Positions 17,979-37,920 of a stretch of DNA of 38,044 nucleotides are shown one piece after another. The notes under the pieces were generated by a model. It saw only the letters and a program-made list of their open reading frames with translations, was not told the origin of the DNA and did not search any database. Position numbers and translations under genes: made by a program. The stretch lies in contig CADCFC010000007.1 in NCBI GenBank assembly GCA_902800645.1, positions 1 through 38,044 of the forward strand, written 5' to 3'. Numbering within the stretch: the first letter of the stretch is position 1; the number at the start of each line of letters is the position of its first letter. The stretch is from an uncultured Erysipelotrichaceae bacterium (lineage in GTDB: Bacteria > Bacillota_I > Bacilli_A > RFN20 > CAG-826).

Positions 17979-19079
17979 TTATTTATCTACTGGTTCACGG
18001 TAAGTATCGTGAGTGTCAGGGTTATAAATCTCACTAATCCACATAATAGTGTGTGATAAATCTTTTCCAATATTAGTAATCTCATGAGTGTAGCCAACTC
18101 TGATATTAATCGGATTAGGTTTATCTCCACTAACGATATCAGTAATCATCTCATTAGTCTTGATATCTCTTTGTCTAACTTCACAAGATCCAATCACTGT
18201 ATAAAAGATTTCTTTTTTATAGGTATGATAATGTCCACCTTTAGTGATTCCAGGATAAGAAACGTTATCGCTTATTTGACCCCACTTTTTACTTTTATAT
18301 AGTTCTTCAAACCATCCGCGATCATCTTTCGCATAGTTATAGTTATATCCATCTTCAGTTAAATAAGCACAGAAGGTTTTAAATAGCTTGAGTTCAAACT
18401 CATCATGGATAATAGGAAGATGCCTATCGCTTTCAATTTCACTCTTAAAATAATATAAGAGGTCGCTTAATTTACCTAAAGAACAATCATAAATTGGATA
18501 AACACTTAATGTATCTTTGCTACCTTTATGTTCTTTTTCTTCCACTACTTTTAGGAATGACTCAGCGATATCATCGACATAGTTATAGTGAACGACATAT
18601 TCTCTATCTCTAATAGTGATATCAAGATTATGAGCAATGTTATAGCAAAATGTCGCAGCCGCACTATTATAGTTAGGTCTACACCATTTACCAAACACAT
18701 TAGCGAGTCGATAAATATATACAGTTAAACCGCTAGAGAAAAGATAATCTTCACCCATCTTTTTACTCTTCCCGTAATCATTATCTAAACTAGCTTGAAT
18801 AGAGCTAGACATGATAATAGGAGAAGATGGTTTTATCTCTTTTACTAAATCAGCGAGTTTCTTTGTAAAATTAGTGTTTCCGTTATAAAACTCTTCAGTG
18901 GTTAATGGACGATTTATACCCGCTAAATGGATAATGAAATCAGAATTAGAGATATAATCTCTTAATTCTTCATCGGTAGAATCAATATCGTATTCAAATA
19001 CTTCGTGGTTATTTCTTTTTAAAAGTATTGATACATGTTTACCAATAAAACCTTTAGCCCCAGTAACAAGTACTTTCAT
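17979..19079 (-). CDS. capF: CapF-type UDP-FucNAc pathway reductase (epimerase plus cupin)
   Basis: A 366-residue bifunctional protein of the CapF/WbjC/FnlB type. The N-terminal extended SDR domain has VTGAKGFIGKH (dinucleotide loop, G7, G10, G13). The C-terminal cupin domain (from about residue 265) has GGHYHTYKKE as metal-binding motif. In S. aureus and Pseudomonas this enzyme epimerises and reduces the 4-keto sugar made by CapE, giving UDP-2-acetamido-2,6-dideoxy-L-talose. Length matches the family (about 370). It starts directly after the capG stop, so it is coupled, and ends in a terminator. No glycosyltransferase for the product is in the window. Confidence 0.93.
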   Translation of the reverse strand: MKVLVTGAKGFIGKHVSILLKRNNHEVFEYDIDSTDEELRDYISNSDFIIHLAGINRPLTTEEFYNGNTNFTKKLADLVKEIKPSSPIIMSSSIQASLDNDYGKSKKMGEDYLFSSGLTVYIYRLANVFGKWCRPNYNSAAATFCYNIAHNLDITIRDREYVVHYNYVDDIAESFLKVVEEKEHKGSKDTLSVYPIYDCSLGKLSDLLYYFKSEIESDRHLPIIHDEFELKLFKTFCAYLTEDGYNYNYAKDDRGWFEELYKSKKWGQISDNVSYPGITKGGHYHTYKKEIFYTVIGSCEVRQRDIKTNEMITDIVSGDKPNPINIRVGYTHEITNIGKDLSHTIMWISEIYNPDTHDTYREPVDK

Positions 19080-20225
19080 CTACTCTTTTCTCCACACCAT
19101 TTTGTTAACGACACCAACATAGCTTTGGATAAGTTTAACAACTTTATCACTCACATTAGTGTCAACATAATCTCTAACAGGTTTACAGCCACTCTTATTC
19201 ATAACAGCGACTTCAACAGCCTGTAATAAATTCTTTTCATCGATTCCCGCTAAAACGAAGCAAGCGTTATCAAGAGCTTCTGGTCTTTCAGTAGAAGTTC
19301 TAATGCAAACCGCGGCAATTGGTTTACCAAGTGAAGCATAGAAAGATGATTCTTCAGGAAGAGTGCCGCTATCACTAACAACTGCATAAGCGTTCATTTG
19401 TAAATTGTTATAATCATGGAATCCTAATGGTTCATGCATTATTACTCGTTTATCGAGTTTAAATCCAGTCGCCTCAAGTTTCTTTCTACTTCTTGGGTGA
19501 CAGCTATAAACAACAGGCATATCATATTTTTCCGCTAAAGCATTAATCGCATTAAATAAGGAATAGAAATTTTTATCAGTGTCGATATTCTCTTCTCTAT
19601 GAGCGGAAAGTAAGATATATTTGCCTTTCTTTAATCCTAAAGTATCAAGCACTTTACTATTTTCAATATTCTTTAAGTTAGCGGTAAGAACTTCCGCCAT
19701 AGGAGAACCAGTGACATAGGTTCTTTCTTTTGGAAGACCACAATCAGCGAGATATCTTCTCGCATGTTCACTATAAGCGAGATTAACATCAGAGATGATA
19801 TCAACGATTCTTCTATTAGTCTCTTCTGGAAGACATTCGTCTTTACATCTATTACCAGCTTCCATATGGAAAATTGGAAGATGTAAACGTTTAGCGCCAA
19901 TAACACTTAAGCAGCTATTGGTGTCTCCAAGAACTAAAACTGCATCAGGTTTAGTTTCTACCATCACCTTATAGCTTTTAGCGATGATGTTACCCATCGT
20001 TTCACCTAGATCATTTCCAACCGCATCTAAATAGATATCAGGATCTTTAATTCCTAAATCTTTAAAGAAGATACCATTAAGGGTGTAGTCATAATTTTGT
20101 CCAGTATGGACAAGAAGAGTATCAAAATACTCTCTACATTTATGGATGACTGCCGCTAATCTAATGATTTCTGGACGTGTACCCACGATAATCATTAGTT
20201 TAAGTTTTCCGTTATTTTTAAACAT
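19080..20225 (-). CDS. capG: CapG-type UDP-N-acetyl sugar 2-epimerase (makes UDP-L-FucNAc)
   Basis: A 381-residue non-hydrolysing UDP-GlcNAc 2-epimerase-fold enzyme. Signatures are VGTRPEIIRLA, LGDTNSCLSVIGA, HMEAGNRC, LSAHREENID and SDSGTLPEE. Next to capF and capE it is best read as CapG/WbjD/FnlC, which turns UDP-N-acetyl-L-pneumosamine/talosamine-type intermediate into UDP-N-acetyl-L-fucosamine, rather than as MnaA for UDP-ManNAc. An AGAGG ribosome site lies 9 bases upstream. The gene begins 15 bases after the toxin gene and abuts capF, so toxin, capG and capF are probably on one mRNA. Confidence 0.92.
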   Translation of the reverse strand: MFKNNGKLKLMIIVGTRPEIIRLAAVIHKCREYFDTLLVHTGQNYDYTLNGIFFKDLGIKDPDIYLDAVGNDLGETMGNIIAKSYKVMVETKPDAVLVLGDTNSCLSVIGAKRLHLPIFHMEAGNRCKDECLPEETNRRIVDIISDVNLAYSEHARRYLADCGLPKERTYVTGSPMAEVLTANLKNIENSKVLDTLGLKKGKYILLSAHREENIDTDKNFYSLFNAINALAEKYDMPVVYSCHPRSRKKLEATGFKLDKRVIMHEPLGFHDYNNLQMNAYAVVSDSGTLPEESSFYASLGKPIAAVCIRTSTERPEALDNACFVLAGIDEKNLLQAVEVAVMNKSGCKPVRDYVDTNVSDKVVKLIQSYVGVVNKMVWRKE

Positions 20226-20240
20226 AATGCATACCTCTCA

Positions 20241-20558
20241 CTAATCAAGTAAATCCAATAATCGATTGTTGTTTTGTCTATAGTCGATAAACATATTTAC
20301 GTAAATATAGTCTTCTTTTAATGAATAGATAACAGCGTATCTTCCATTAATCAAATTTGCTTTTCTGTAATTAATGCCTGCAATGGTATTTCCTAGAAAT
20401 CTAGGGAATGCAGTTGGAAACATTTTTATTTTCTCAATGGTTACTGAAATATTTTCTAATAAATCTTTAGCGGCTTGATATGATACGTTTGAAAGAAAAA
20501 TAGCCGCTTCATTAACTTGATCAAAAAATCTTTTAGAAATAACTACTTTCATAATCAT
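20241..20558 (-). CDS. RelE/ParE-superfamily toxin
   Basis: A 105-residue toxin-like protein of the RelE/ParE fold: N-terminal strand KVVISKRFFDQV, a long helical pair with AAIFLSN and IEKIKMFP, then RKANLINGRYAVIYSL and YIYVNMFIDYRQN strands. Typical length is 90-105. RelE toxins cleave mRNA on the ribosome and ParE toxins act on gyrase; the sequence does not settle which. The ATG overlaps the antitoxin stop as ATGA, the standard coupling of antitoxin-first modules. Oddly, it lies inside a sugar-nucleotide operon. Confidence 0.88.
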   Translation of the reverse strand: MIMKVVISKRFFDQVNEAAIFLSNVSYQAAKDLLENISVTIEKIKMFPTAFPRFLGNTIAGINYRKANLINGRYAVIYSLKEDYIYVNMFIDYRQNNNRLLDLLD

Positions 20559-20818
20559 TTATTAATATTCTTTTCCCAAAGCGCCATAGCTTCTTCAAGC
20601 GAATATGTCTTTTCGCCAGTAATTCTAGCGATTTCGGTTTCTAAAAGTTGTTTGACAATTTCGTTTAATTTCTTTTGCTTCTCAAAAGCATCGATAGATA
20701 GAACAACCAAATCTCCTTCACCGTTTTTAGTTAAATAAACAGGTTCCCCGGTTGATTTGCATAGTTCAGAAATTTCATTATATTGATTTCGTAAAGAAGT
20801 AGATGATTTAATAATCAT
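20555..20818 (-). CDS. Phd/YefM-family antitoxin
   Basis: An 87-residue antitoxin. The N-terminal part (IIKSSTSLRNQYNEISELC, then EPVYLTKNGEGDLVVLSIDAFEK) is the Phd/YefM DNA-binding fold. The charged C-terminal half (about 55-87) should wrap the toxin and block it. Such antitoxins also repress their own operon together with the toxin. A perfect TAGGAGG ribosome site precedes the ATG. The 61-base gap upstream of it, after capE, carries repeats suited to an operator. Its stop codon is TGA, evidence for the standard genetic code here. Confidence 0.92.
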   Translation of the reverse strand: MIIKSSTSLRNQYNEISELCKSTGEPVYLTKNGEGDLVVLSIDAFEKQKKLNEIVKQLLETEIARITGEKTYSLEEAMALWEKNINK

Positions 20819-20832
20819 TTTATGTGACCTCC

Positions 20833-20877
20833 TATAATTCTATCAATATTCTATCATAATTATATACGATTGTATAT
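20833..20877 (-). promoter_or_regulatory. Operator/promoter region of the Phd/RelE module
   Basis: The short gap after capE holds an inverted repeat ATATAC/GTATAT (20862-20867 and 20872-20877), two direct copies of ATTCTATCA (20837-20845 and 20848-20856) spaced 11 bases apart, about one helical turn, and outer arms TATAATT/AATTATA. On the minus strand a TATAAT -10 match lies within it, without a good -35 box. Autoregulation by the antitoxin is expected from the family; the repeats are the likely sites. Confidence 0.55.
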
Positions 20878-20879
20878 CT

Positions 20880-22073
20880 TTATTCGTGTTGTTTCACTGG
20901 TCCACCGAATAGTTCAAGTTTCTTGAGTAGTTCTTTCATTCCGTTAACATCAAGTCTACCAGTGTTATGGGATGTATAACTTTCTCCAAGATTAAGTTTC
21001 TTATTTCCTTTAGAGAAATATTTGTCATAGTTAAGGTCACGATTATCAGCTTTAACACAGAAGAAGTTACCTAAATCAATTGCCTTAAGCATTTCTTCTT
21101 GAGTAACTAAAGTTTCATATAATTTCTCACCGTGACGAGTGCCAATATAAGAAATACCAGTTTTACTATTAGTTAATTCAATAACGGCTTTCGCTAAAGT
21201 TTCAATTGTAGCCGCTGGTGCCTTTTGAACGAATAAGTCACCTTGTTCACCGTGTTCAAAAGCGTAAAGGACTAAATCAACCGCGTCATCTAAAGTCATC
21301 ATGAATCTCGTCATATCTGGATTAGTAATAGTAATTGGTTTACCTTCACTAATTTGATTCAAAAATAGAGGGATGACACTACCACGAGACGCCATAACGT
21401 TTCCGTATCTTGTTAAACAAAGCACTGTATCTCCTGGAAGAAGTTGTCTACTTCTAGCGATAACATTCTTTTCCATTAAAGCTTTAGAAATACCCATCGC
21501 ATTAATTGGATATGCTGCTTTATCTGTAGAAAGGAAGATAGCCTTTTTAACTCCATTACGGACACAGGCAGTAATAACATTATCACTACCGATAACATTA
21601 GTTCTCACCGCTTCCATTGGATAGAATTCACAAGAAGGAACTTGTTTAAGCGCAGCAGCGGAGAAGACATAATCAACTCCTTTAAAAGCGTCAATGATCG
21701 AATCAAGATTTCTCACATCTCCAATATAGAATTTAAGTTTAGAGTTGTTATACGCTTTACGCATATCATCTTGTTTCTTTTCATCACGAGAAAGAATTCT
21801 AATCTCTTTAATTTCGGTATTTAAGAAACGATCAACAACCGCATGACCAAAGCTACCAGTTCCTCCAGTAATAAGGAGAACTTTATCTTTTAAGATTGAT
21901 GTGTCTTTCGCCATAAATTCCATTAAGCGATCTTTAATACCTTCGAGTTTAAGTTGATCCACTCCACTTTCATTATTTTCATATTCAACATATGTTCTTA
22001 AAGGAACTCCAACAATATTTGAGACTTCCTTTTGAGTTAATTTGCAATTTTTGCGTAATTCTTTAAGTGTCAT
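20880..22073 (-). CDS. capE: CapE-type UDP-GlcNAc 4,6-dehydratase with N-terminal HTH domain
   Basis: A 397-residue fusion. Residues about 60-397 are an inverting UDP-GlcNAc 4,6-dehydratase/5-epimerase (CapE/WbjB/FnlA): NAD loop ITGGTGSFG (G70-G76), STDKAAYPINAMGISK with M193-xxx-K197 in place of the SDR Y-xxx-K (reported for CapE/WbjB relatives), and GTRHGEKLYETL. It makes the first intermediate towards UDP-L-FucNAc. Residues 1 to about 55 are a helix-turn-helix domain (LTQKEVSNIVGVPLRTYVEYEN) not found in standard CapE. The fusion looks genuine: an AGAGGTG ribosome site precedes the first ATG, the frame is continuous, and no ribosome site is seen before the internal ATGs at the domain border. 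The HTH may let the enzyme regulate its own operon (inference). Confidence 0.93.
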   Translation of the reverse strand: MTLKELRKNCKLTQKEVSNIVGVPLRTYVEYENNESGVDQLKLEGIKDRLMEFMAKDTSILKDKVLLITGGTGSFGHAVVDRFLNTEIKEIRILSRDEKKQDDMRKAYNNSKLKFYIGDVRNLDSIIDAFKGVDYVFSAAALKQVPSCEFYPMEAVRTNVIGSDNVITACVRNGVKKAIFLSTDKAAYPINAMGISKALMEKNVIARSRQLLPGDTVLCLTRYGNVMASRGSVIPLFLNQISEGKPITITNPDMTRFMMTLDDAVDLVLYAFEHGEQGDLFVQKAPAATIETLAKAVIELTNSKTGISYIGTRHGEKLYETLVTQEEMLKAIDLGNFFCVKADNRDLNYDKYFSKGNKKLNLGESYTSHNTGRLDVNGMKELLKKLELFGGPVKQHE

Positions 22074-24323: not shown

Positions 24324-25799
24324 TTAAATAAGTTCAAATTCGATAACAGCCTTATTCATGTTTACTTCTTTAAAAGTAATGCGATATGGGAAATCAATAC
24401 CATTATGGAATTTTCCATTAAAGAAATAGAATTCATAATCACCACTCGTGAATATTTGTCCTGTTTTAAATAAAGCGTTATCGTTAGCGACATAAGTTCC
24501 ACTAGTTTGATAACCAGTTAAATTATTCGCAGGAATAATATTCACTAAATCATATTTTGCTTTATTACCACTCACTCGGACATAGCTCTTACTAGGAGTG
24601 TTACTACACATTTGATAAACACTAGGAACATCATTAAAAGTAGAGACAATTCCTTTAGAAGAATTACATCTTGCATCAACATGAATCATTCTCACTCCAG
24701 GAAGCTGGAATGTTTTTTGACTAACGTTTGGATAAGGGTAATTTGAATCATGAGTCCAAAGTCCATTAGGAGTTAAAAGCTCAAGCATTAAATATTCATC
24801 AAAAGCTGAATTAGAAAATGGAGTTTTAGGATTTCTAACGATAATACTTTCTCCAGAAAAAGAAGAAGGAGTAATTGTAATCTCAGAGTTACCAGTAACT
24901 AAATATGGAGTAGTCCAACCAAACGCATATTTAGAATAAGCGTTATGATCACCAACGTTATAATCTTGCATATCAAAACATCCTAAAGGTGAATGAGTGT
25001 TATCGTAATCATAATAATCTTCTAACCCTAATATATGCCCATATTCATGTATATAGGTATGCGCGTCAATATCAATAGAAATTGCTTTACCTTTATCCAT
25101 TAAGTCATAGCTACTCCAAGAATACATATGAGGAATTGGATTACTATGAGAATGTGGATTATCCATATTTGGAATATCTGCATAAGTTATCGCCCAGAAT
25201 GGATTAAGAGGATCACTACTCGTTACATCACTAAACGCGATACGTGTTTCACATGAAAAAATCATATATATTGAGTCAATATATCCGTCATTATTTAAAT
25301 CGTAATCAGAAAAGTTAAATGAATTAGCCTTTAAAACATCATAAACACGGTTAATAACGGTGAAAGTGCCATAGTCGACATATTGACTGTTGTTACTATC
25401 ATAGATTTCTTTAGGGGTCATATTGATATCAACCCAATCGGTCACTACTCCACTAATTTTCAAATTAGAAAAAGATGACTTCTCAAAATAGGAAGAAACT
25501 GATTCAAAACCAGTAGACTCACTATTGCCAAAGAATGCTTTGTTTATCTTTTCTTTATTTTCACTAGTCGCGTTACTCTCATACCCTTTAATAACAACTG
25601 GCACTACTAAAAGCTTTTGTTCGCCATTAGAAGGAGAATATCTTTTTCTACCAGCAAATTTTTGGCCATAAGAATAATAAGTCTCAACACTTCTAGAGAG
25701 TTTAACATATCCATTATCAATAATAGATGGAGATGAACCACATCCACTCAAAGAAAATGGAATTACAAATAATAAAGAAACGAGTTTTAATCTTTTCAT
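24324..25799 (-). CDS. M6-family metalloprotease lipoprotein
   Basis: A 491-residue exported lipoprotein (lipobox LSGC, modified C20). The catalytic zinc motif HEYGHILGLED gives H251, E252, H255 and third ligand D261, as in M6 (immune inhibitor A-like) peptidases. Before it stand the M6 N-terminal segment KLLVVPVVIKGYE...SSYFEKSSFSNLKISG and a DLNNDGYID loop (about 167-175) that looks like a calcium-binding site. A C-terminal beta-rich part (about 300-491) may bind substrate. It likely cuts host or environmental proteins at the cell surface, which is inference. No ribosome site precedes the ATG. TATAAT lies 7 bases before it, so the mRNA may be leaderless. It is separated from the lipoprotein operon upstream by a terminator. 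Confidence 0.85.
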   Translation of the reverse strand: MKRLKLVSLLFVIPFSLSGCGSSPSIIDNGYVKLSRSVETYYSYGQKFAGRKRYSPSNGEQKLLVVPVVIKGYESNATSENKEKINKAFFGNSESTGFESVSSYFEKSSFSNLKISGVVTDWVDINMTPKEIYDSNNSQYVDYGTFTVINRVYDVLKANSFNFSDYDLNNDGYIDSIYMIFSCETRIAFSDVTSSDPLNPFWAITYADIPNMDNPHSHSNPIPHMYSWSSYDLMDKGKAISIDIDAHTYIHEYGHILGLEDYYDYDNTHSPLGCFDMQDYNVGDHNAYSKYAFGWTTPYLVTGNSEITITPSSFSGESIIVRNPKTPFSNSAFDEYLMLELLTPNGLWTHDSNYPYPNVSQKTFQLPGVRMIHVDARCNSSKGIVSTFNDVPSVYQMCSNTPSKSYVRVSGNKAKYDLVNIIPANNLTGYQTSGTYVANDNALFKTGQIFTSGDYEFYFFNGKFHNGIDFPYRITFKEVNMNKAVIEFELI

Positions 25800-25832: not shown

Positions 25833-25863
25833 AAACAAAGGACTAGGGTGTCTTGCACCCTAG
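25833..25863 (-). terminator. Terminator of the five-lipoprotein operon
   Basis: CTAGGGTG (25843-25850) and CACCCTAG (25856-25863) form a perfect 8-bp stem with a 5-base loop, followed on the minus strand by TCCTTTGTTT. It is the only strong terminator between 36020 and 25894. Confidence 0.88.
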
Positions 25864-25893
25864 CCCATAGTTTTATTCCATTAATACAAAGTA

Positions 25894-28422
25894 TTAGATG
25901 TGGAAGTCTGAATTGGTTGCTTCCGCATTTTTAGTGGTATAAAGTCTAGAATCAATGTCATCATTGATCTTGATCTTAGTATCACTAACGGTTGCGGTAA
26001 TATCTTTTTCATATGTGGTTTCACTACTTCCAGCAACATCTTTGTAAATATGAATCGACAAGATGTTTGTAGAACCATCATAAGTTGCAGTAAACACAAA
26101 TTTATGAGCAGAAGAACCTTCACCGCATTGGACATATCCTGAAATATCACCACTATCTTCGTCAAATACGATTAATAATTTAGAATTTGTTTCCCACCAT
26201 CCATCATAGTAAGTACCAGTAAATGTTAAACCAGAGAAGATTGAGGCGGTGTAAGGAACTTCTTCATGAGAAACAAGTGTATATGTTCCTTCACCTAATG
26301 TAACTAAATAGGTATGAACAAATTCACCAGAAACACCACTAATAACTACGTTACCTTCATTAACGGTGTATTTAAAGGCAACACCATTAACTGTAGCTCC
26401 GCCATTACCGTCTAAGACGATATCGCCTTCACTACCAGTATAAGTGCCTTGTAATCCATCGAGGACAAAGTATTTTAAGTTGGATTTTCCTCCATTAGCA
26501 CCATTAGTACCACTAAATGAGCAGATGTAATTACCGTTTGCATCACTTAAATCAACATTAACTTCAGAATCAGTAATCTTAGTGCCGGTTATAAAGTCAA
26601 ATTGAACTCCAGTAATGACACTATTGTCACTCGCGTTAAGTAAGATGCCATCAACCATCACTCCACTTCTTTCGAGTTGACCAACATAGTAATTCTTATC
26701 TTTTGTTTGAATCAAATAGATGAAGTAATCACTAACAGTAAATCCTTCTTCAACCTTGAAATATAAATAGATATCTGAAGTAATTGGGTCACTACTAAAG
26801 TTGTAATGATGGAAGATCCAATTGCTTGCGTAGCCAAAGACGTTGTTATTTGTTAAGGTAGCAACTTTGTTGGTTTCATCAACTGATGCAATTTCATAAG
26901 TGGAACTACCTCTAGTAATAATACCAGCAGAATTAATGCTCATCTGTTGAGAACTACCTTTACGGATATAGACATTATTATTCCAGAATTCTGCTCCACC
27001 ATATTGACCGACAAATTCTTTGCCAGCGTATTTACTTGGATTCATTTCAGTAACTGTAATATTAAGAGTAGCAGTTGCTTTTGGCATCACAAATGAATAA
27101 TATCCATCAGAGTTAGGTCCACTAATAGTGACACTAGTAGTAGAGTATTTTGCAGTAATTGTGTTAACTTCAAATGTAGTGCCTTCGGCAATAGTTGGTT
27201 TTAAATAAACTGTATCACCATAAACGGCTTTATTATCACTTAACGCGACATATTCGTCATCAACTTTTTCATAAGCTGATAAAGTAATATGCTCAGAATT
27301 AACGAACGCAAATTCGCGATATACTTTTTCATAAGTTAAAGTAGCAACAACAGAGTGATAAGGCATAATGAAGCCAATGTTTCCATCAACCGCTTCATAA
27401 GTCACTCCATCAACGACCATTCCGTTAACTTTAACAACGTCCGCATAAGAACCATAGGATAAATTAATGGTTATTGCGGTTCCGTATCTTACGTGTCTAG
27501 TATTACCTTCAACAGTATAGATAGTCGCTCCACTAGCAGCTTTGACGGTATTAACTTGTTTAACCGCATCTTCGTGATCACTAACAAAGTCAAGAGTGTA
27601 CGCTCTTAATTCAGTTTTGATTTCCACTTCAACAGCTTCATCAGGCATAGTGAATGATAATACGCCATCAGCGAATGTAGAAGGAACGATAGTACGATCT
27701 TCTGGGTCAAACGCACTAATGTTTCCATATACTTTAGCGTTAGTAGCGATATAACCTGGATTCACATATAAATGTGCATTTACAGTTGCGCCTACTTCAG
27801 CTTCGTCAACATCAATAGAAGCGACCGATGCAGATTTATTAGTAATCGCATATTTTTCTTTAACTGGGGAAGGTGTAGCAGGAGTAAAAGTTATAGTTAC
27901 TGCTTGATTTGGCATATAGAAATAGTATTTTCCGCCTTTTCTACCACATTCATTTCCATTAGCTTTCATGGATTCAATTGCGGTATTTGAGAGAACACTA
28001 AATTCTACGTATTCACCTTCTTGTGCTTTAGTTGGTCCTTCGACTTCTAATGCGCTTGGATAAGTGATTGAGAAGTTTTCAGTAACACTAACAGTATAAG
28101 AAGCACTGATTTTACTATCAGCTTTAGATGTGGCTTTAATAGTTGCACTTCCTTTACTAATAGCGGTTACGACACCTTCTTCACTAACGCTAGCAAAATT
28201 AGGAGTCTCGCTAGACCATGTAATTTCTTTATTTGTTGCATCACTAGGAGAAACAGTTGCAGTTAATGTAATTGTTTGTCCTTTTTCAACAGTGGTTGGT
28301 CCACTGATAGTAATGCTTTCTACAGGGATTACGATTGGTGCAGGAGCGTTTCCTCCACAACTAGCAATTCCCATTGATAAACCCACTAATGTGGTTACAA
28401 AGAGTAAATTATTCTTTTTCAT
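25894..28422 (-). CDS. Lipoprotein with Ig-like (BIG2) and F-x-MP repeat domains (842 residues)
   Basis: An 842-residue exported lipoprotein (lipobox IASC, C22). Residues about 33-115 are a clear bacterial Ig-like group 2 domain (VESITISGPTTVEKGQTITL, SPSDATNKEITWSS, VVTAISKGSATIKATS). Four beta repeats follow, each ending in an aromatic-x-MP motif then alternating hydrophobics (YFYMP, LSFTMP, IGFIMP, YSFVMP), as in divergent InlB-type B-repeats. From about residue 490 (NPSKYAGKEFVGQYGG) comes a module resembling the duplicated one in the preceding gene. The C-terminal third has Gly-rich turns and TFTGTYYDGWWET. No catalytic motif was found; a surface adhesin or glycan-binding role is inference. 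GGAGGG ribosome site; last gene of the operon, before a strong terminator. Confidence 0.8.
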   Translation of the reverse strand: MKKNNLLFVTTLVGLSMGIASCGGNAPAPIVIPVESITISGPTTVEKGQTITLTATVSPSDATNKEITWSSETPNFASVSEEGVVTAISKGSATIKATSKADSKISASYTVSVTENFSITYPSALEVEGPTKAQEGEYVEFSVLSNTAIESMKANGNECGRKGGKYYFYMPNQAVTITFTPATPSPVKEKYAITNKSASVASIDVDEAEVGATVNAHLYVNPGYIATNAKVYGNISAFDPEDRTIVPSTFADGVLSFTMPDEAVEVEIKTELRAYTLDFVSDHEDAVKQVNTVKAASGATIYTVEGNTRHVRYGTAITINLSYGSYADVVKVNGMVVDGVTYEAVDGNIGFIMPYHSVVATLTYEKVYREFAFVNSEHITLSAYEKVDDEYVALSDNKAVYGDTVYLKPTIAEGTTFEVNTITAKYSTTSVTISGPNSDGYYSFVMPKATATLNITVTEMNPSKYAGKEFVGQYGGAEFWNNNVYIRKGSSQQMSINSAGIITRGSSTYEIASVDETNKVATLTNNNVFGYASNWIFHHYNFSSDPITSDIYLYFKVEEGFTVSDYFIYLIQTKDKNYYVGQLERSGVMVDGILLNASDNSVITGVQFDFITGTKITDSEVNVDLSDANGNYICSFSGTNGANGGKSNLKYFVLDGLQGTYTGSEGDIVLDGNGGATVNGVAFKYTVNEGNVVISGVSGEFVHTYLVTLGEGTYTLVSHEEVPYTASIFSGLTFTGTYYDGWWETNSKLLIVFDEDSGDISGYVQCGEGSSAHKFVFTATYDGSTNILSIHIYKDVAGSSETTYEKDITATVSDTKIKINDDIDSRLYTTKNAEATNSDFHI

Positions 28423-28439
28423 ATTTCTTTACCCTCCTA

Positions 28440-31193
28440 TTATGCTTTGGTGTAGACACGATCAGTTACAGTGCCAATCGTGTTACTTCCAACTTTGACT
28501 ATAAATGAAGTCGCTTCACTTAATTTATCTTTATCGCCAGTAAATTCAAACGATAATCCAGTACCATAGAATTCTTTGTTTTGAATATCAAAGAATGCAC
28601 AAGCATACATACTCTCAACTTCACTAACAGTTCTTGTAACTTGAACCGCCATAAAGCCGTTATAAACTATCAAATAATAGAACTTATACATATTGTTTGT
28701 ATCAGTAGCTTCTTGCATTTTAATAAAGACATCAAGATCGCTACCAATCTTATCTTTAGTTGTATCTAGTCCATAATCACCGACGATAAATTTATTTCCG
28801 TAGAAGAATTGGTTTCCATTTTTAAATGTTGCATAGCCATCTCCTTCTTGAGAAGATACTTCATTAATAACAGTTTTAGTCATTTTGTTGAAGTTGCCTT
28901 TTTGATCAATTGTGTAGCCAGATGAACCAGTGCCACTGCTTTGTGAATATCCGGTAGAAGTCTTATAAATATTTTTATATATATAATTACCAACAAGGTC
29001 ATGATCTTTAAGAGGATTTGGATTTCTCTCTTTAACAGTCATCGTGACATTAGTCTTAGGCATTTTGAAAGAATAATATCTGTTTTTCTCAAGGAAATTG
29101 ACCGCAACATCTACTGGATTTCCTTCTTCATCAGTAAAGATAAGAGAATCATATTCGAAGTTTTCATCTTCAACTGCACCATCGCCAATATCTTTAGGTG
29201 TTAAAGCAGCAACGATAGTTTGTCCTGCATTAATGCTAGTCAAATCAGCAATTGGTTCATAGAATGATGGTTCACAAATTTGAACGCTGTAATGGGTACT
29301 ACCAACTGGAACGATGGTTTGTGGATGAGGTATTAAATTAGTAAAGCTAGTGCCATCAGTAACAGTAGCAATGACTTGATTTTTAATCATGACATTATAT
29401 GCTGCTGAAGCATCGCTGACTTTTACACCATTACTAAACTCAAACGTGACATCGTTAGAATATATTTCCTTATTGACGATGTCATAGATCATATTCGCAT
29501 AAGGTGTTTCTACACTATCAACAATTCGATATGCTTGAACTGCTAAGAAAGAAGTTTTAACAGTGCGGTAATAGAATTTGTAATTTGCTTTAGTATCGCC
29601 CGCTTCTGCTAAAACAGAAACATGCCAATCGGTACCAAATCCACCACTATAGCCAGTAGAGAATGAATAGTGGCCAAAGAGGAATTTTCCACTATAAGCA
29701 ATATCTTTAGGTGTACTATCAGTAGTAGTCATAACGCCAAAGGAGTTTTCGTTATAGAGATTGATTGATCCGATTGTGTATTTACTAGCGGAATAACCAG
29801 TTCCTTTAGTAATTTCACCATCACCAGTAATAACAACTTGATGGCTATCACTCACAGAAATAGATTTATCAGGTCCTTCATATGCAATATTCGCTCCAAA
29901 GTGAGTGCCTAAGAATGGTTGGCCTTTATATTTAGTCATGTCTTTTTCATTAACTGTAACAGAGACATCATCTCTATTAGGCATTGTGAAGTGATATAAC
30001 TTACCTTCTTCATCAGTATAAACAGAATAAGAAGAAACACCATTAACGGTAATACCGTTAAAGACATAATCTTCACCTGGTTCACCAACTGAAGAAATCT
30101 TTACGTAAATTACATCTCCTGGAAGGATTTCATCAACATTTTGAATATCGACATCCTTTGGACATTGAAGTGTCGCATTATAGTGAGCGGAATTAATGAC
30201 TTCAATTCCTTTATAGTTCATCGTGCCATAGGCAGTGACTTCAAAATCATCCGCTGGCATTTGGAAATATCCATAATAATAATCTTCGTCTACAACAGGG
30301 GTAAGATTATCAACTTCAATAACCGAATCAAATGAACCAGAGAGTCTAACACCAGTCATATTAGAAACTCGATCACTAGATTTTCTTACTTTGACTCTAA
30401 TTTCTTGTCCATATGGAACGTGATAAGTAGTATAGTCGCGTCCATAATAGTAAGAGCCAAATGATTCACCAGTAACGTTAGTGAATTCATCAGTAGTAGT
30501 AACTTTAGTGGCAAATGGAGAAGAAGCAAAGTTTGCGTTTTTTTCGCTACTTCCAATAGTTAAACGATATAAGTTAGCTTCAAGTTCTACATCAACACTA
30601 ACTTCTTCATTTGGCATAACAAAACTATATTCGTTATTAGTAAAACTTACATCTACCGGATCATCGCCTTTAGTAATTGAGACTTTTCCAGTAAATGAAT
30701 AAGGTGAATTATAAGCAAATTTAATTTGGAATCTTACTGTTTCTCCTGGAGCGACATATTCATCAGCTCCAAAAAGAACAACACCTTTATCTTTGTTGAC
30801 GTTATTGATTTTCACTTTTCCATGTGTAGGATCATTATATTTACCTGTTACTCTTACCGATACCGCTTCTTCAGGCATCTTAAAGGTAAATTTGTTGTTT
30901 CCTTCTGAAAATGGAAGTTCGTTATTAACTGTAACACTATTAATAGTATAGACACTGCTATCGTATGAAATGGTGAATGTCACTTTACTACCTTTAGTTG
31001 CGCTACTAGGACCAGTAATAGTAACAGCGTCATCTTTAGTGTAAGTGATGTCGTAGTTACCAGTACTTGGTTCGTGGTTAGCTCCTGGAAGGTAATCGTT
31101 ATTAGTACTATTAACGTTACTTTCAGGTGTTCCACACGCTACTAAAGAGAATAATGTAGCAGTTAATAAGAGTGATCTTGTGATTTTTTTCAT
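28440..31193 (-). CDS. Lipoprotein with F-x-MP repeats and a duplicated module (917 residues)
   Basis: A 917-residue lipoprotein (lipobox LVAC, C20) with five F-x-MP repeats, the MP at residues 106, 193, 312, 404 and 711. After the fourth and the fifth comes a module of about 190 residues, at about 419-616 and 727-917. The two copies share KFYY at the centre, F-x-AVQ, R-x-V, VE-x2-(P/M)YA, D-I-x-NKE-x-Y and FEF, and both end in (A/G)TVTD. The repeats resemble divergent InlB B-repeats; I do not recognise the module. No catalytic motif seen. An AAAGGAG ribosome site precedes the ATG. Gaps of 21 and 17 bases to the neighbours point to co-transcription. Probably an elongated surface protein, binding something unknown. 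Confidence 0.8.
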   Translation of the reverse strand: MKKITRSLLLTATLFSLVACGTPESNVNSTNNDYLPGANHEPSTGNYDITYTKDDAVTITGPSSATKGSKVTFTISYDSSVYTINSVTVNNELPFSEGNNKFTFKMPEEAVSVRVTGKYNDPTHGKVKINNVNKDKGVVLFGADEYVAPGETVRFQIKFAYNSPYSFTGKVSITKGDDPVDVSFTNNEYSFVMPNEEVSVDVELEANLYRLTIGSSEKNANFASSPFATKVTTTDEFTNVTGESFGSYYYGRDYTTYHVPYGQEIRVKVRKSSDRVSNMTGVRLSGSFDSVIEVDNLTPVVDEDYYYGYFQMPADDFEVTAYGTMNYKGIEVINSAHYNATLQCPKDVDIQNVDEILPGDVIYVKISSVGEPGEDYVFNGITVNGVSSYSVYTDEEGKLYHFTMPNRDDVSVTVNEKDMTKYKGQPFLGTHFGANIAYEGPDKSISVSDSHQVVITGDGEITKGTGYSASKYTIGSINLYNENSFGVMTTTDSTPKDIAYSGKFLFGHYSFSTGYSGGFGTDWHVSVLAEAGDTKANYKFYYRTVKTSFLAVQAYRIVDSVETPYANMIYDIVNKEIYSNDVTFEFSNGVKVSDASAAYNVMIKNQVIATVTDGTSFTNLIPHPQTIVPVGSTHYSVQICEPSFYEPIADLTSINAGQTIVAALTPKDIGDGAVEDENFEYDSLIFTDEEGNPVDVAVNFLEKNRYYSFKMPKTNVTMTVKERNPNPLKDHDLVGNYIYKNIYKTSTGYSQSSGTGSSGYTIDQKGNFNKMTKTVINEVSSQEGDGYATFKNGNQFFYGNKFIVGDYGLDTTKDKIGSDLDVFIKMQEATDTNNMYKFYYLIVYNGFMAVQVTRTVSEVESMYACAFFDIQNKEFYGTGLSFEFTGDKDKLSEATSFIVKVGSNTIGTVTDRVYTKA

Positions 31194-31214
31194 AAGTTTT
31201 AACTCCTTTTCTTC

Positions 31215-32534
31215 TTATTGGTTATATAGATAATGAATTGCGTCTAATACTGAATAATTACTACTTCCAAAACTTCTTAAAGGGATTGGCATCGCGTATG
31301 TAGACCCATACGTGAAGTAATATATAAAGGTAATAGAGGATTCACTATCACTAGCACCGATATTAATGTCAATCCCAACCGCTTCAGGAACATAAGTACT
31401 TGTGTCATATGCTTGATCAATTGAGAAATTACTCACAAAATCTAAAACGTATTTAGAATTGTTGAAATAATATGGAGTACCAGTATAGGTATAACCAGTA
31501 GATGAATATGCACCTTCATTAACAAACTGCATATTATCTAAAATTTTGAGATAAGTTGGATAATGATAATATTCAACGATATTAGCCTTAGGATAAATCG
31601 GAGTATTACTCGCTATACCGAAGGTATAGTTTTCAGGATCTGATAAATCTCCACCAGCTTGGAAGAAATAACATCCATTCATGTCGTTTGAGTGATATTC
31701 ATTAGCTTTAGCGTTAACTACCATCGCGCCAGAACCAGATTCACTATTATTCATCCGACTATAGAAATATTTATTTGTGAACACTTCAATACCGCTATAA
31801 GATTCGGTAGAGAAATCATAAATATCTCTAGTGAAGTTATTGCTGCGAATTAGGGAACGCGCTTTCCCTAGAGAAGCTTCTAAATCTTTTGCCATTCCCC
31901 CGTTAGCGAGGAAGGTATCAACTTCAGAAAACTTACTCTTATTAACATTTGTGAGTCGATAAGTGTAATTCTTATTTCCAGTCATCTTAATCACAAAGTT
32001 AACTGATCCGTTAATGTAAGTAGCACCCATCGATTCAACATCGAGATAGACACTACTAGAGAAACCGAGAGTGGTTAATAGTTTCATCTTGTAATCTTTC
32101 TTAGAGAAAGATATTGAAGTAAGCGAATCGCTAATACTATTAACATAATCAGTTTCTATGTTATACATAGTGGACATCACCTCTCCACTATATAAATCAG
32201 TGATTTTGTTTCCTAGACTATTGAGACAATATTCTCCGGATTTAAGTCCGCTCTCGTAATTAAGCGGATATATTCCATTACTGTCTTTGATATAAGCCTG
32301 TAAACCACTTGGTCTTTTGCTCATATTCACACCGATAGAGTTCTCTAAGAATATATATGAGACTCTACCATAAGAAGCATGTTCGGTTTCTAATGTGTAA
32401 TTCTTGCTTCTATTTAAAACAATAAGACCATCTTTTAATGAATTGACTTCTACAACAGGTGATTCAGTATTTTTTTGGCAGCCACTAATTAGTAGCACAC
32501 CAATTAAAGTTAATACTTTAATATTAAATTTCAT
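31215..32534 (-). CDS. Lipoprotein of unknown function (439 residues)
   Basis: A 439-residue lipoprotein with lipobox ISGC (C19). I do not recognise a family. The body is beta-rich with many Tyr, Ser and Asn, for example VMSTMYNIETDYVNS and YTYTGTPYYFNNSKYVL, and no F-x-MP repeat or catalytic motif is visible. Long stretches of alternating polar and apolar residues could form a beta-sandwich or a LolA/LppX-like lipid-binding half-barrel, but this is only an impression. It has no ribosome site: the ATG lies 2 bases after the stop of the preceding lipoprotein gene, so translation is likely coupled to it. That coupling suggests the two proteins are made in equal amounts and may form a complex. 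Confidence 0.75.
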   Translation of the reverse strand: MKFNIKVLTLIGVLLISGCQKNTESPVVEVNSLKDGLIVLNRSKNYTLETEHASYGRVSYIFLENSIGVNMSKRPSGLQAYIKDSNGIYPLNYESGLKSGEYCLNSLGNKITDLYSGEVMSTMYNIETDYVNSISDSLTSISFSKKDYKMKLLTTLGFSSSVYLDVESMGATYINGSVNFVIKMTGNKNYTYRLTNVNKSKFSEVDTFLANGGMAKDLEASLGKARSLIRSNNFTRDIYDFSTESYSGIEVFTNKYFYSRMNNSESGSGAMVVNAKANEYHSNDMNGCYFFQAGGDLSDPENYTFGIASNTPIYPKANIVEYYHYPTYLKILDNMQFVNEGAYSSTGYTYTGTPYYFNNSKYVLDFVSNFSIDQAYDTSTYVPEAVGIDINIGASDSESSITFIYYFTYGSTYAMPIPLRSFGSSNYSVLDAIHYLYNQ

Positions 32535-32536
32535 TT

Positions 32537-35161
32537 TTAAGCTTGTTTTACAAATGAAGTGTAGCTATATGGCTCGCCATCTTCAGCTTCGCCATAGATT
32601 GGATACCATACACGATCTTCAATATCAGAATCGTATTCCCATTCTGCTAAATAGACACCGAGTTTTCCTGTGATGAAATCCGCGCAGAATGCGATATCCC
32701 AATAGCTAGGATCAGTCGCCCAACCACTAGTGTTAGGCGTAATGCTGATTCTTGTCACTCTTGCAAGAATTTCTCCTCCTTTGTATTCATAGTAGAAGTC
32801 AACGCTTAACGAAGAAGAGAATGTACCATCATCTTGATATCCATCATCAACGATGTGTCCAATTAAAGGATTAGTAAATTTACTACTTGTTTCTCCTGTA
32901 TATGCTTCGCTTGTAAATGTAACAGAAGCATGCTCTTCATAACCTTCCATATTCCATGTCGTTCCAGTTGGATTAGCGGAACTTGGAACAATATAGAAAG
33001 TAAACATGACGTATTTATTAGGATCATCAAACCAATCAGAAGTAATCTTAACTCTTACGGTTTTGTTTTCAGTGATACTACTAGCGCCGGTACAATCAAT
33101 TCCAAGTTTTTCTCCAGTAGAAGAAATAGTTAATAAGCTTGGATCTTCACTTTGAGCGTTATAAACAACTGGAGCTTTATCTGGTGTGACTGCAACCTTG
33201 AAATAAGTTACTTCTCCCGCCATTACTTTAGCACTTTCAGAAGTTTCAACTCCGACTGATGGCTGTTCACCCCATCTAGAATATAAATAAACACTTCTAA
33301 ATTTAGCGGTTGCACTAACATTAATATTTAAATTGAATGTTGGACTATTTTTAGTGTAGTTACCAAAGGTAACTGTAGCGTCTCCAATACCAACACAACT
33401 CATCGAATAAGAATAATCACCTTGTCCTTTGCTAATGACATTGGTGTTACTTGAGGCAGTTGGACCAAATTGCCATGCATCTAAAGCGGTAAGAGGAGAA
33501 TAAGAAAATTCTTTTAAATAAGGAATAGAATCATTATCTCCCATCTTATATAAATTGACATGGTCTAAATAATGTAAATAACTATTGCCGTCATCAGGTT
33601 TAGCGGTCGCACTATTATAAAAACGAATATTAGAAATATTGGAGATAAAATATTTACTCTTATCAAAAGTAGGCGCACCGCTATATGGTTCACCATATTC
33701 AAAACTACCTTCAATCTTTTTGACTAAGGTTGGTTCGGCTCCAGGATTAGGAACGTTATTAGTCATATCCCAATCAGCAAGTTTATATGAATTTAAAACG
33801 TAATCAATTGATAATGGTTTTCCATCACTAGTGAAAGTTAAAGTTAAATCATAAACAATAGCTTCATGTCTTTCAGCGACATAAGTAGAAGCGCTTTGAT
33901 CATAAACGATATAGCTATCAACATTAGTGGTAATCACTTTGGTTTCACTATCTTGTTCAGATTCGATCTTAATGGAATATCCACTTTCAGGGAATCCCCA
34001 GCGATAGCTTTGCGCCCATTCATCTTCAAACACTTTTCCGTAGTGTGCTCCGTGAGTTAAACTATGTTTAACTGCTCTAATAGGATAAGTACCTCTTCCA
34101 GATACTTCACCTGGATCGTTATTGTTTTTGAAATCATATTCGCTATCACTAGCGACATCATATCTAGCGCTTACTGCATTAGATGCACTATTGATACGAT
34201 ATTTTTCGTTATTTCCTCTATTAGTAGGGAAAGTATCAACGATTTCATATGTCATATTAGTTTCATCAAAGTGTTTATATTGGTAATAGGTCTTATCATC
34301 AATAACATCTTCAACAACGTTATACATAACATTGCCTTCATACATCTTCATCGTTTCTTGTGTTTTGAAGGTATTATCTGGGTTACTACGATCAGTAACT
34401 CTATATGTATAACCTTTTAAATCATCATAGTTAACTGTAGATTCAGAACGATAGCTTCCAGAGAAAAGAGCCTCTAATCCACTAACAGTGTTTGGTAAAT
34501 AATCAACAGACACTCTTTTAACGTAGCAAGGTAAAGGAGCGGTTGGATCATAATAGAAATCATAAGTAAAGCCTCTAGCGATACTAAATTTCTGTGTAGA
34601 TGAACTTCCCGAAGTAAAAGTGATATCAGCAAAGCATTTATCTTCATCTAATTCTTTACTATCTAAAATAGATGATGCTCCAACTTTATAAGAGAAAAAC
34701 GCTCTAGGAGAACTGCTTAAAGGAACGGAAACGTTTCTTGCAACATAGATCTCTCCTTCTTTTACTAAATTAGCAGCAACTTCACCAGTTAGCACCACTT
34801 CACCACTAACTTCGACAGTAATCTTAATAAACGCACTTTGATTTGGCATTTTAAAGTTATAAGTAACTCCATCAGTGCTACTTAATGCGGTAGAGTTCAT
34901 CGTAACACTAGTAATAGTAACACCAGTCTCAAGACGAGTAATGGTTAAGGTGACATCTTCACCTTTAGCGGCCTTAGTCTTATTTAAGGTATATTCCACT
35001 CCTGCTGGAACAGAGACATTAATCGTATATTTTTCTGTTACAGGATCTCCACCTGGATCAACAGGTGAAATAGGATCAGTAGGTGCATTAGCGTTACCAC
35101 ATCCGGTAAGAACAAGTCCACCTAGAAGAACTGCTACTGATAATAATTTAACTTTCTTCAT
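32537..35161 (-). CDS. Lipoprotein with an F-x-MP repeat and Ig-like region (874 residues)
   Basis: A lipoprotein of 874 residues (lipobox LTGC, C21) from the ATG at 35159-35161. An upstream in-frame ATG (35165-35167) is only 3 bases from the GGAGG site and adds MN, so the second ATG fits better. After a Pro/Asp-rich spacer (PTDPISPVDPGGDP) comes one beta repeat ending in YNFKMPNQSAF, close to the repeats of the other operon proteins. The large central region (about 150-500, rich in Tyr, Asp and Thr) is unrecognised. Around residues 620-740 an Ig-like strand pattern (VMAGEVTYFKVAVTPDKAP) appears. The N- and C-terminal parts each contain a DFYY...V-x-R-(V/I)-S segment, hinting at an internal duplication. 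No catalytic motif noticed. Confidence 0.78.
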   Translation of the reverse strand: MKKVKLLSVAVLLGGLVLTGCGNANAPTDPISPVDPGGDPVTEKYTINVSVPAGVEYTLNKTKAAKGEDVTLTITRLETGVTITSVTMNSTALSSTDGVTYNFKMPNQSAFIKITVEVSGEVVLTGEVAANLVKEGEIYVARNVSVPLSSSPRAFFSYKVGASSILDSKELDEDKCFADITFTSGSSSTQKFSIARGFTYDFYYDPTAPLPCYVKRVSVDYLPNTVSGLEALFSGSYRSESTVNYDDLKGYTYRVTDRSNPDNTFKTQETMKMYEGNVMYNVVEDVIDDKTYYQYKHFDETNMTYEIVDTFPTNRGNNEKYRINSASNAVSARYDVASDSEYDFKNNNDPGEVSGRGTYPIRAVKHSLTHGAHYGKVFEDEWAQSYRWGFPESGYSIKIESEQDSETKVITTNVDSYIVYDQSASTYVAERHEAIVYDLTLTFTSDGKPLSIDYVLNSYKLADWDMTNNVPNPGAEPTLVKKIEGSFEYGEPYSGAPTFDKSKYFISNISNIRFYNSATAKPDDGNSYLHYLDHVNLYKMGDNDSIPYLKEFSYSPLTALDAWQFGPTASSNTNVISKGQGDYSYSMSCVGIGDATVTFGNYTKNSPTFNLNINVSATAKFRSVYLYSRWGEQPSVGVETSESAKVMAGEVTYFKVAVTPDKAPVVYNAQSEDPSLLTISSTGEKLGIDCTGASSITENKTVRVKITSDWFDDPNKYVMFTFYIVPSSANPTGTTWNMEGYEEHASVTFTSEAYTGETSSKFTNPLIGHIVDDGYQDDGTFSSSLSVDFYYEYKGGEILARVTRISITPNTSGWATDPSYWDIAFCADFITGKLGVYLAEWEYDSDIEDRVWYPIYGEAEDGEPYSYTSFVKQA

Positions 35162-35186
35162 ATTCATTTACCTCCAATTCAATTAA

Positions 35187-36020
35187 TTAATATAAGAATC
35201 CGTTCTGATAATATTTCGCATATTTAGCAGCGACGAAGATCGAGAATATGTGATCTTCCCCTCCTACTCTATAGAAGGACTTGATTTCACTAGCGGTGCT
35301 ATTGATATATAAGTAGGTGATCTTAGTTTGAGAACCATTTGGATTATCAGTTATTTCGCAGCTATATTCATATAAGTCACTTGCCTCGATATATCCTTGA
35401 TATGTCGCAGAGAATATAAGATTAATGTTTTGTTCATAATCATCATTTCCTCTTAATTGAACACTACTAACTGTTTCACTATTTAAGAAGGTCATACGGT
35501 GATTACCACACATCTTATATCCGCGATATACGTCATTGTCGTAACAAGCTTTAATCACTTCGCTAGAAGAATAAGCTTTTCTCACTCTAATGATATTTCG
35601 ATAGACTAAGTTCTCCATTGAATCATATATTTGAAGAACGCTATCTCCGATTGCTTTGCCATGTATCTTAAATTCGGTTCCATTAGATTCAATGATTGAA
35701 ATTGAATCCCCCTTAGCGACTCTAAATGTTATTTGTCCATCGCTTGTGGTGCTTGGAGAAAAAGAGCATAAATAATCGTGATTCTCCGCTAAAAGTAAAT
35801 GGGCGTCAATATCGATTAGAAATCCTCCAAGAGAACCATGTGAAACAAAATCGCTTTCATCAAATTCTACTGTAGGGATATCTTTATCCGGATCATCTAC
35901 TTCTGGAAGAGGAATATCTCCACCTGTATTGCCATTAGGAGTTGATCCACAAGAAGCAACACCCAAAGTAAAAAGAGCGCTTAATATCGGTAGTAATAAT
36001 AATTTTGAATGTTTTTTCAT
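35187..36020 (-). CDS. Lipoprotein of unknown function, first gene of the operon (277 residues)
   Basis: A 277-residue lipoprotein (lipobox VASC, C24) with a linker rich in Gly, Pro and Asp (about 27-60). Residues about 85-150 have an Ig-like (BIG2-like) strand pattern: ITFRVAKGDSISII, FKIHGKAIGDSVLQIYD and a closing NIIRVRK. The C-terminal half is unrecognised, with two cysteines (KACYDNDVYRGYKMCGNH, then YSCEI) that might form a disulfide outside the cell. GAGG ribosome site 8 bases from the ATG. It is first in the operon, 19-25 bases before the next gene, and preceded by a leader with two palindromic elements. A small protein beside four large ones could be an anchor or regulator of the assembly, which is inference. 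Confidence 0.75.
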   Translation of the reverse strand: MKKHSKLLLLPILSALFTLGVASCGSTPNGNTGGDIPLPEVDDPDKDIPTVEFDESDFVSHGSLGGFLIDIDAHLLLAENHDYLCSFSPSTTSDGQITFRVAKGDSISIIESNGTEFKIHGKAIGDSVLQIYDSMENLVYRNIIRVRKAYSSSEVIKACYDNDVYRGYKMCGNHRMTFLNSETVSSVQLRGNDDYEQNINLIFSATYQGYIEASDLYEYSCEITDNPNGSQTKITYLYINSTASEIKSFYRVGGEDHIFSIFVAAKYAKYYQNGFLY

Positions 36021-36049
36021 ATTTTTTACCTCGACTTGTTGTAAATACG

Positions 36050-36063
36050 TATACGCGCGTATA
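36050..36063. promoter_or_regulatory. 14-bp perfect palindrome in the lipoprotein operon leader
   Basis: TATACGCGCGTATA is a perfect, unspaced palindrome with a CG core in an otherwise AT-rich genome, 30-43 bases upstream of the first ATG and downstream of the predicted start of transcription. It could be an operator for a dimeric repressor, or part of an RNA structure. Confidence 0.6.
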
Positions 36064-36069
36064 ACGCAA

Positions 36070-36089
36070 ATTCGCCCGTATGAGCGAAT
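36070..36089 (-). promoter_or_regulatory. Leader hairpin of the lipoprotein operon
   Basis: On the minus strand ATTCGCTC and GGGCGAAT pair over 8 bases (one G-U) with a 4-base loop ATAC. It lies close to the predicted transcription start and just before the 14-bp palindrome. No T-run follows, so it is not a terminator; it may stabilise the mRNA 5' end. Confidence 0.5.
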
Positions 36090-36102
36090 AAAATATGCCG
36101 TT

Positions 36103-36132
36103 ATTATATAAATTTATTTATTCTACATTCAA
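36103..36132 (-). promoter_or_regulatory. Promoter of the five-lipoprotein operon
   Basis: TTGAAT (36127-36132), an 18-base spacer and TATAAT (36103-36108) on the minus strand, giving a leader of about 76 bases that holds the two palindromic elements. Confidence 0.6.
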
Positions 36133-37107: not shown

Positions 37108-37920
37108 ATGAATAATAAGAAAAAGAATAGATTTTTTGGAATCTACTATAAGCATCAATCAGTAAGTGGGTACACTCTTTCAGTCATTGATTCCTTTTCT
37201 AATGAAGGAAAGATGGTCCAAATAATCACTAGCGATAAAGCGTATCTACTTAAAGACACTAGTCAAATAAATATATCTAAAGAAGGAATAGAATTCTCCA
37301 TTAATCAAGAAGATCTAAAGATAAGTGGATCAATTAAATATCAAAATCTATCTAAACCAAATAAAGATATTATGAGTTACTTTAGATATCTTCCAATTGA
37401 ATGTAAACATAATATCTATTCAATGCACCACGATATCTCTGGAAATCTCTTAATAAATAATGAATCCATATCTTTTGATAATGGAGATGGATATATGGAA
37501 GGAGATGAAGGAAGAAACTTCCCTAAAGAATATCTTTGGTTCAACGCTTCTAAAAGCGATAGTAGTATCACTCTCGCTATCGCAGATATACCTTTAGGAT
37601 TATTCCATATATTAGGAAATACATGTCTAATTAAATACAAAGATAAAGAATATCGCTTTGGTACATATAACTTCTCTAAAGTTAAGAAATTAAGTAGAAA
37701 AGAAATAATCCTTAAAAAGGGCTCATATACATTAGAAATAAATATCTTAGATGATTCTTCCTTTCATCCTTTAAAAGCTCCTAAAAAAGGAGATATGATA
37801 TGTTATATCCACGAATGTCCATCTTTACCCGCTAGATATATATTAAAAAAGAAGAATGATATCTTAATTGATACCACTCATCCATTCGCATCTTTTGAAT
37901 ATATGTTTAAAGATAAGTAA
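37108..37920 (+). CDS. Tocopherol-cyclase-like protein
   Basis: A 270-residue soluble protein that resembles the tocopherol cyclase-like family (PF14249 type). The family start, normally (Y/F)FEGWY-K-Q, appears as RFFGIYYKHQ. A central block runs from SMHHDISGNLLINNE through FDNGDGYMEGDEGRNFPKEY to LW (about 105-144), matching the bacterial G-GYIE-D-G-(S/N)FP-(E/R)YIW pattern. IADIPLG and EYRFGTY follow as in relatives. Plant members close the chromanol ring of tocopherol; bacterial members have no known substrate, and this organism type does not make tocopherol, so a different lipid-like substrate is likely. No signal peptide and no ribosome site. AT content of its codons is very high. Confidence 0.75.
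   Translation: MNNKKKNRFFGIYYKHQSVSGYTLSVIDSFSNEGKMVQIITSDKAYLLKDTSQINISKEGIEFSINQEDLKISGSIKYQNLSKPNKDIMSYFRYLPIECKHNIYSMHHDISGNLLINNESISFDNGDGYMEGDEGRNFPKEYLWFNASKSDSSITLAIADIPLGLFHILGNTCLIKYKDKEYRFGTYNFSKVKKLSRKEIILKKGSYTLEINILDDSSFHPLKAPKKGDMICYIHECPSLPARYILKKKNDILIDTTHPFASFEYMFKDK

Follow-up and report, generated by a model that had tools for sequence, protein, structure and literature searches.

Several described systems resemble the locus analyzed here in one respect or another. InlB B-repeat and List_Bact_rpt proteins of Firmicutes (Pfam PF18998, PF09479) are large, repeat-rich surface proteins, and modules resembling theirs occur in A1, A2 and the N terminus of C, three of the five lipoproteins considered below. 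The window proteins are lipid-anchored, however, rather than sortase- or wall-anchored, and the remaining two, B and D, have no counterpart in those systems. InlB-type adhesins are set apart further by a leucine-rich repeat (LRR) ligand-binding domain, which Pfam does not detect in any of the five window proteins, or by a sortase anchor, no sortase match having been found in the genome. The S-layer proteins EA1 and SbsB (PDB 8opr, 4aq1) are the best structural matches for the beta-sandwich chain of C, but C has a lipobox and a patchy distribution, aligns with a TM-score of about 0.1 and gave no match to an S-layer family by sequence. Sus-like lipoprotein systems of Bacteroidetes (PMC5080379) also co-encode several surface lipoproteins in gut bacteria; unlike them, our five genes contain no SusC/SusD match and no glycan hydrolase, and the organism carrying them is a member of the Bacilli. 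M6 peptidases (immune inhibitor A family) are represented by the product of a downstream gene, which lies outside the five-gene unit, is far from characterized members and scores below the TIGR03296 cut-off.

The Mycoplasma MIB-MIP pair cleaves immunoglobulins and is made up of a surface protein and a DUF31-type serine protease, closely encoded in wall-less host-associated bacteria. Our locus likewise brings surface protein and protease genes close together in an apparently wall-less bacterium, but there is no DUF31-type Pfam match in the five proteins or in the neighboring peptidase, which is of the M6 type and separately transcribed. A preliminary description of the locus had recognized no described system with this gene set, and we agree: no family library that we searched, and no open-access paper found in a limited literature search, names it. 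The bacteria of this group inhabit human and livestock guts, are uncultured and have lost most wall genes and sortases. For studies of how they attach or feed at their surface, B-C-D, a set without a described family that is inherited all or none and has moved between families, is a clear target.

Layout of the five-gene unit

The window, the whole stretch of 38,044 nucleotides that was analyzed, is the entire contig C7 of a 1.3-Mb metagenome-assembled genome (MAG) that is about 90% complete. We re-found the five minus-strand open reading frames described earlier (277, 874/876, 439, 917 and 842 residues, 36020 to 25894) and named them B, C, D, A1 and A2 in transcription order. The features of the region are as follows.

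36103-36132, minus strand: candidate promoter TTGAAT-18-TATAAT, a consensus match only
36022-36100, minus strand: 5' leader (about 80 bases) containing two hairpins (-21.2 kcal/mol, z -2.1)
35187-36020, minus strand: B, 277-residue lipoprotein with a single Ig/Big2-like domain; its gene opens both the operon and the conserved core
32537-35167, minus strand: C, 874/876-residue lipoprotein; one MP (B-repeat-like) module followed by a beta-domain chain that includes two Ig-like domains
31215-32534, minus strand: D, 439-residue lipoprotein with two homologous lobes
28440-31193, minus strand: A1, 917-residue lipoprotein; repeated B-repeat-like (MP) modules and a beta domain common to A2
25894-28422, minus strand: A2, 842-residue lipoprotein; Big_2, four MP modules, the shared beta domain and a C-terminal domain with a TYTG..GDIVLDG motif
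25840-25866, minus strand: intrinsic terminator of the five-gene unit, 11-bp stem with 7 GC pairs (-22.8 kcal/mol, z -4.8)
24324-25799, minus strand: M6-type metalloprotease lipoprotein (HEYGHILGLED; Peptidase_M6 E 1.4e-6), a separate transcription unit just downstream

The intergenic gaps are as short as had been reported (19, 2, 21 and 17 bases), and the folding energy of the terminator bears out its description as strong. All five products combine the signal peptide and lipobox cysteine of bacterial lipoproteins, with the lipobox following a hydrophobic stretch in each case (VASC, LTGC, ISGC, LVAC and IASC from B to A2), again in line with the earlier reading. The lipobox cysteine is invariant in our alignments of B and C and conserved to at least 90% in that of D. 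For C, the first ATG yields 876 residues, and a second ATG at 35161, which is better spaced from a GGAGG element, yields 874. The D gene indeed has no Shine-Dalgarno sequence (..GCTTAAAAATGAAA). The C-D junctions of relatives mostly lack a clear one too, and a downstream D usually starts a few bases from the C stop codon; D is thus probably translated by coupling to C.

The single promoter proposed for the operon has a plausible candidate in TTGAAT-18-TATAAT, but the scan yields fewer promoter-like sites than shuffled sequence (36 versus 62), and a single promoter is therefore only putative. Both hairpins of the minus-strand leader (36022-36100) are GC-rich in an otherwise AT-rich intergenic region, and they are absent from every other locus that we fetched. 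A known riboswitch was rejected here, as the leader has no Rfam match.

Co-inheritance and movement of B, C and D

We compared the gene content of 279 genomes of the order, which is probably RFN20 in GTDB. Full-length relatives of C were found in 48 of these (one of the 48 partial) and full-length relatives of B also in 48, the two genome sets being identical; D has relatives in 51, comprising all 48 and three more. The co-occurrence of C with D corresponds to a hypergeometric probability of 8e-51, a value that treats relatives as independent, which they are not. Counts for B and C are from six-frame searches, since a simple ORF caller missed genes lying under long antisense ORFs in GC-richer relatives, and the B profile was built from positionally chosen sequences. 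Judged by coordinates, B immediately precedes C on the same strand at 49/53 C loci. The four exceptions are two contig breaks, with B on another contig, and two second copies of C (in genomes G109 and G080). D is found within 4 kb of C at 46/53 loci: it follows C on the same strand at 21, precedes it on that strand at 9 and is encoded opposite to it at 16. The linkage of C and D has thus been kept despite changes in gene order, which argues for a joint function.

These counts also bear on the simplest alternative, namely that the five lipoproteins are merely co-transcribed and act separately. The genomes in question do contain many large lipoprotein genes, often in tandem, yet the exact co-occurrence of B and C, with D accompanying them through rearrangement and apparent horizontal transfer, makes separate action highly improbable. 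The three core genes stay together in related genomes, and all five do so less widely. What had been described as one five-gene unit resolves into two modules, with B-C-D as an obligate core (48/279) and A1-A2 as a smaller module within core-bearing genomes; we saw the exact five-gene arrangement in just one other genome, that of relative G136.

Among the named relatives that encode C, all uncultured gut Bacilli, are Candidatus Alloenteromonas pullistercoris, Candidatus Scatoplasma merdavium and an 'Erysipelotrichaceae' MAG. The C tree is at odds with taxonomy and mixes genera and families: genus g46 is scattered over at least four positions, and g52, which belongs to another family, is paired with g23 in one place and with g46 in another. 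As the C tree does not track taxonomy, the B-C-D set moves between families and remains complete as it does so. Within the genus of the window, the set is present in only 2 of 19 sampled genomes, and together with the placements in the C tree this indicates that B-C-D is gained and lost as a unit. The full-length set was detected only inside the order; the wider class yielded no more than fragments related to the N-terminal D lobe. Searches with tblastn gave no match for C in plasmid records and none for D in phage records, and viral contigs held no relative of D; phage or plasmid cargo was rejected on these grounds. An anti-phage defense system was also rejected, as no PADLOC model matched.

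Between the close species G026 and G038, B, C and D are 97, 94 and 96% identical, and flanking genes 89-98%. The core genes thus diverge no faster than their flanks and give no hint of the fast change often seen in immunity-facing adhesins, and we rejected fast antigenic variation accordingly. Because genomes retain or lose B, C and D jointly and their translation is closely coupled, the three most likely form one complex on the membrane's outer face.

Core proteins and the host envelope

B matches no Pfam or NCBIfam family. The Ig-like pattern noted earlier in this 277-residue protein corresponds to a weak profile hit (E 5e-4), spanning profile positions 82-152, on a surface protein of known structure. 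For C, an AF2 model was obtained with a pLDDT of 85, and its best PDB matches in Foldseek are cadherins in addition to the two S-layer proteins, with TM-scores near 0.1. The modeled likeness appears to be a general one between chains of beta-sandwiches, and a search of PDB sequences with the C profile gave no match at E<=0.1, so C has no sequence homology to a characterized S-layer protein in that search. A Mfa2-type fimbrial family was rejected as well, having no match in the window's own genome.

The same genome (about 90% complete) contains no penicillin-binding transpeptidase domain and no sortase match, in agreement with a published prediction that several RFN20 families are peptidoglycan-deficient and that sortases are missing from the order (PMC10868615), and the host bacterium is apparently wall-less. 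For a cell that lacks peptidoglycan transpeptidases and sortase, lipid anchoring is the obvious route of surface display. One may ask whether an S-layer-like C, together with B and D, provides a lipid-anchored S-layer substitute that stabilizes wall-less cells. EA1 and SbsB as best structural matches would fit such a coat, as would the missing transpeptidases of the host and the peptidoglycan deficiency predicted for several RFN20 families (PMC10868615). We nevertheless consider a structural coat quite unlikely. Nearly all members of the family lack transpeptidases, but the set is present in only 48/279 genomes and in 2/19 of the same genus. Transpeptidase-bearing genomes, moreover, carry it (5/30) about as often as the order average. 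As five of the 48 set-bearing genomes do have transpeptidases, the set is not tied to wall loss, and we rejected cell-wall replacement as its general function, since few wall-less relatives have it and some walled ones do.

D is an internal duplication, its two halves matching each other at 95.7% over 174 columns in a profile-profile comparison. It has no Pfam or NCBIfam family, and its AF2 model (pLDDT 92) has no PDB match at E<=1e-3 in Foldseek. Matches of D to sliding clamps and viral proteins were discarded, as they have low probability and TM-scores of about 0.1. A different function would follow if D and the middle of C were LolA/RseB-like half-barrels with lipids or other small hydrophobic compounds as their ligands at the cell surface. 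Both D lobes and C residues 250-490 have a helix-strand topology in the models, and RseB and siderocalins are among the weak Foldseek matches of D, with probabilities of about 0.4 (0.41 for RseB). This LolA-like reading, which we do not claim, relies on what we take to be the topology of the LolA fold and on these weak matches. We judge a hydrophobic-ligand carrier very unlikely, given that no significant structural match to a LolA/RseB-like fold was found for D in the PDB, that TM-scores stay below 0.3 and that the D lobes and the middle region of C share no profile similarity.

Proteins of about 640-730 residues that consist of tandem units akin to the N-terminal D lobe are encoded at G026:C5:110404-111600, G079:C14:7034-8380, G028:C5:94637-95965, on G393:C24 and elsewhere. 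Such tandem proteins also occur outside the order and point to a wider family that has no Pfam entry.

Repeat-rich partners, a neighboring protease and the proposed complex

The A2 family (E below 1e-200) is present in 11/279 genomes of the order, all of them among the 48 with B-C-D, which has a probability of 1.4e-9 if the two were independent. A shorter A1-like match adjoins A2 in relatives. In nine of the 11 genomes A2 is located at the B-C-D locus; it lies about 110 kb away in G028 and on another contig in G058. At loci with A2 beside the core, C belongs to a single subclade, the one containing the window. In two genomes a single A1-A2 pair is flanked by two different C genes, the second of which has neither B nor D next to it (G109:C1:77394-90347, G080:C39:45846-58397).

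An aromatic-x-MP motif had been assigned to three of the proteins. We found F-x-MP four times in the 842-residue A2 and five times in the 917-residue A1 (0.02 and 0.09 expected after shuffling), whereas the 876-residue form of C has a single copy (0.07 expected, P 0.07). The beta module shared by C, A1 and A2 is confirmed by profile-profile comparison, in which the C module matches A2 at 99.0% and A1 at 97.9%; the beta domain common to A1 and A2 matches at 99.8%. The BIG2 domain of the 842-residue protein is likewise recovered (Pfam Big_2, E 1e-16). Flg_new_2 was detected in the 917-residue protein (E 8e-6, 26.2 bits versus a cut-off of 23.6) and in 22 of 42 relatives of C at E<=0.01, and a search of B and D for repeats of this type found none. 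The repeat architecture once attributed to all five proteins is thus mainly a property of A1, A2 and the N terminus of C and, by profile-profile comparison, does not extend to B or D. In other lineages, large proteins near the core contain List_Bact_rpt, collagen, Big_2, Big_3 or BspA-type LRR domains.

We infer, with about evenly balanced confidence, that the operon encodes a surface lipoprotein complex of B, C and D together with an exchangeable, repeat-rich ligand-binding partner. The reading draws on what we observed: the genes and their lipoboxes, co-occurrence, linkage that persists through rearrangement, transfer from family to family, shared domains and the internal duplication. The five lipoproteins would form a membrane-anchored surface assembly with B-C-D as its core. 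C, as a beta-sandwich chain, could serve as stalk or scaffold, the small Ig-like B may cap or brace it, and the two-lobed globule D may be a functional head or an assembly partner. A1 and A2, with their B-repeat-like modules, would contribute an exchangeable, adhesin-like extension that binds ligands, and other lineages encode different repeat-rich lipoproteins near the core (List_Bact_rpt, collagen, Big_2, BspA-type LRR). On a cell without peptidoglycan transpeptidases or sortase, such a lipid-anchored structure would be directly exposed, and the M6 protease encoded nearby may process it.

The structure would most likely serve to bind something in the gut; no ligand-binding domain of known specificity was found in the proteins. 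Of the surface complex for host glycan or protein binding that was suggested previously, the co-inherited set of surface lipoproteins is supported; the complex itself is putative, and a host glycan or protein is a candidate ligand. More tentatively, B-C-D may be an obligate surface machine of a new type, built from three lipoproteins, that uncultured gut Bacilli exchange horizontally as one unit and on which interchangeable, repeat-rich A1-A2-like mounts bind different ligands. The B-C-D set offers a trait marker and a putative three-protein complex to reconstitute, and the natural series of partners (A1-A2 versus others) allows what the complex presents to be probed.

The product of the M6-type gene at 24324-25799 scores 28.2 bits against Pfam Peptidase_M6 (cut-off 22), contains the HExxH zinc motif that defines M6 members and matches TIGR03296 with an E of 2.6e-27. 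This neighbor raises the main rival to our preferred reading, in which B-C-D and a repeat-rich partner hold a polymer such as mucin or dietary protein and the M6-type lipoprotein cleaves it for uptake. In 20/43 core-bearing genomes, C has an M6-type gene at a distance of no more than 10 kb, with 3.1 expected from gene number and genome sizes (uncorrected for relatedness). Most of these neighboring copies have an intact HExGHxxGxxD active-site motif, and collagen, LRR or subtilase domains are present at some partner loci. Against this reading, 23/43 genomes have no M6-type gene within 10 kb, its position varies, and in the window it is separately transcribed. Every one of the 43 core-bearing genomes examined has M6-type genes, nearly always in several copies (1-10 per genome), and no peptide transporter turned up in the window operon. 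Surface proteolysis for nutrient capture is therefore unlikely in our view, and we retain a ligand-binding surface complex as the best explanation.

A second lipoprotein locus in the window's genome (G000, contig C2, L022:5699-14841) has three genes in a row, which encode a 707-residue M6-type lipoprotein, a 906-residue protein with MP motifs and a C-like N terminus, and a 1374-residue protein related to the start of A2. Elsewhere in the window, nucleotide-sugar and polysaccharide genes at 15083-22073 (polysaccharide epimerase, UDP-GlcNAc 2-epimerase and an LPG-synthase-like membrane protein) suggest a surface polysaccharide, and a 270-residue protein encoded on the plus strand at 37108-37920 has a sub-threshold match to tocopherol cyclase (24.3 bits, cut-off 26.6). 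An FMN riboswitch (Rfam RF00050, E 5.8e-15) is located on the minus strand at 1398-1511, just upstream of the minus-strand gene at 584-1345.
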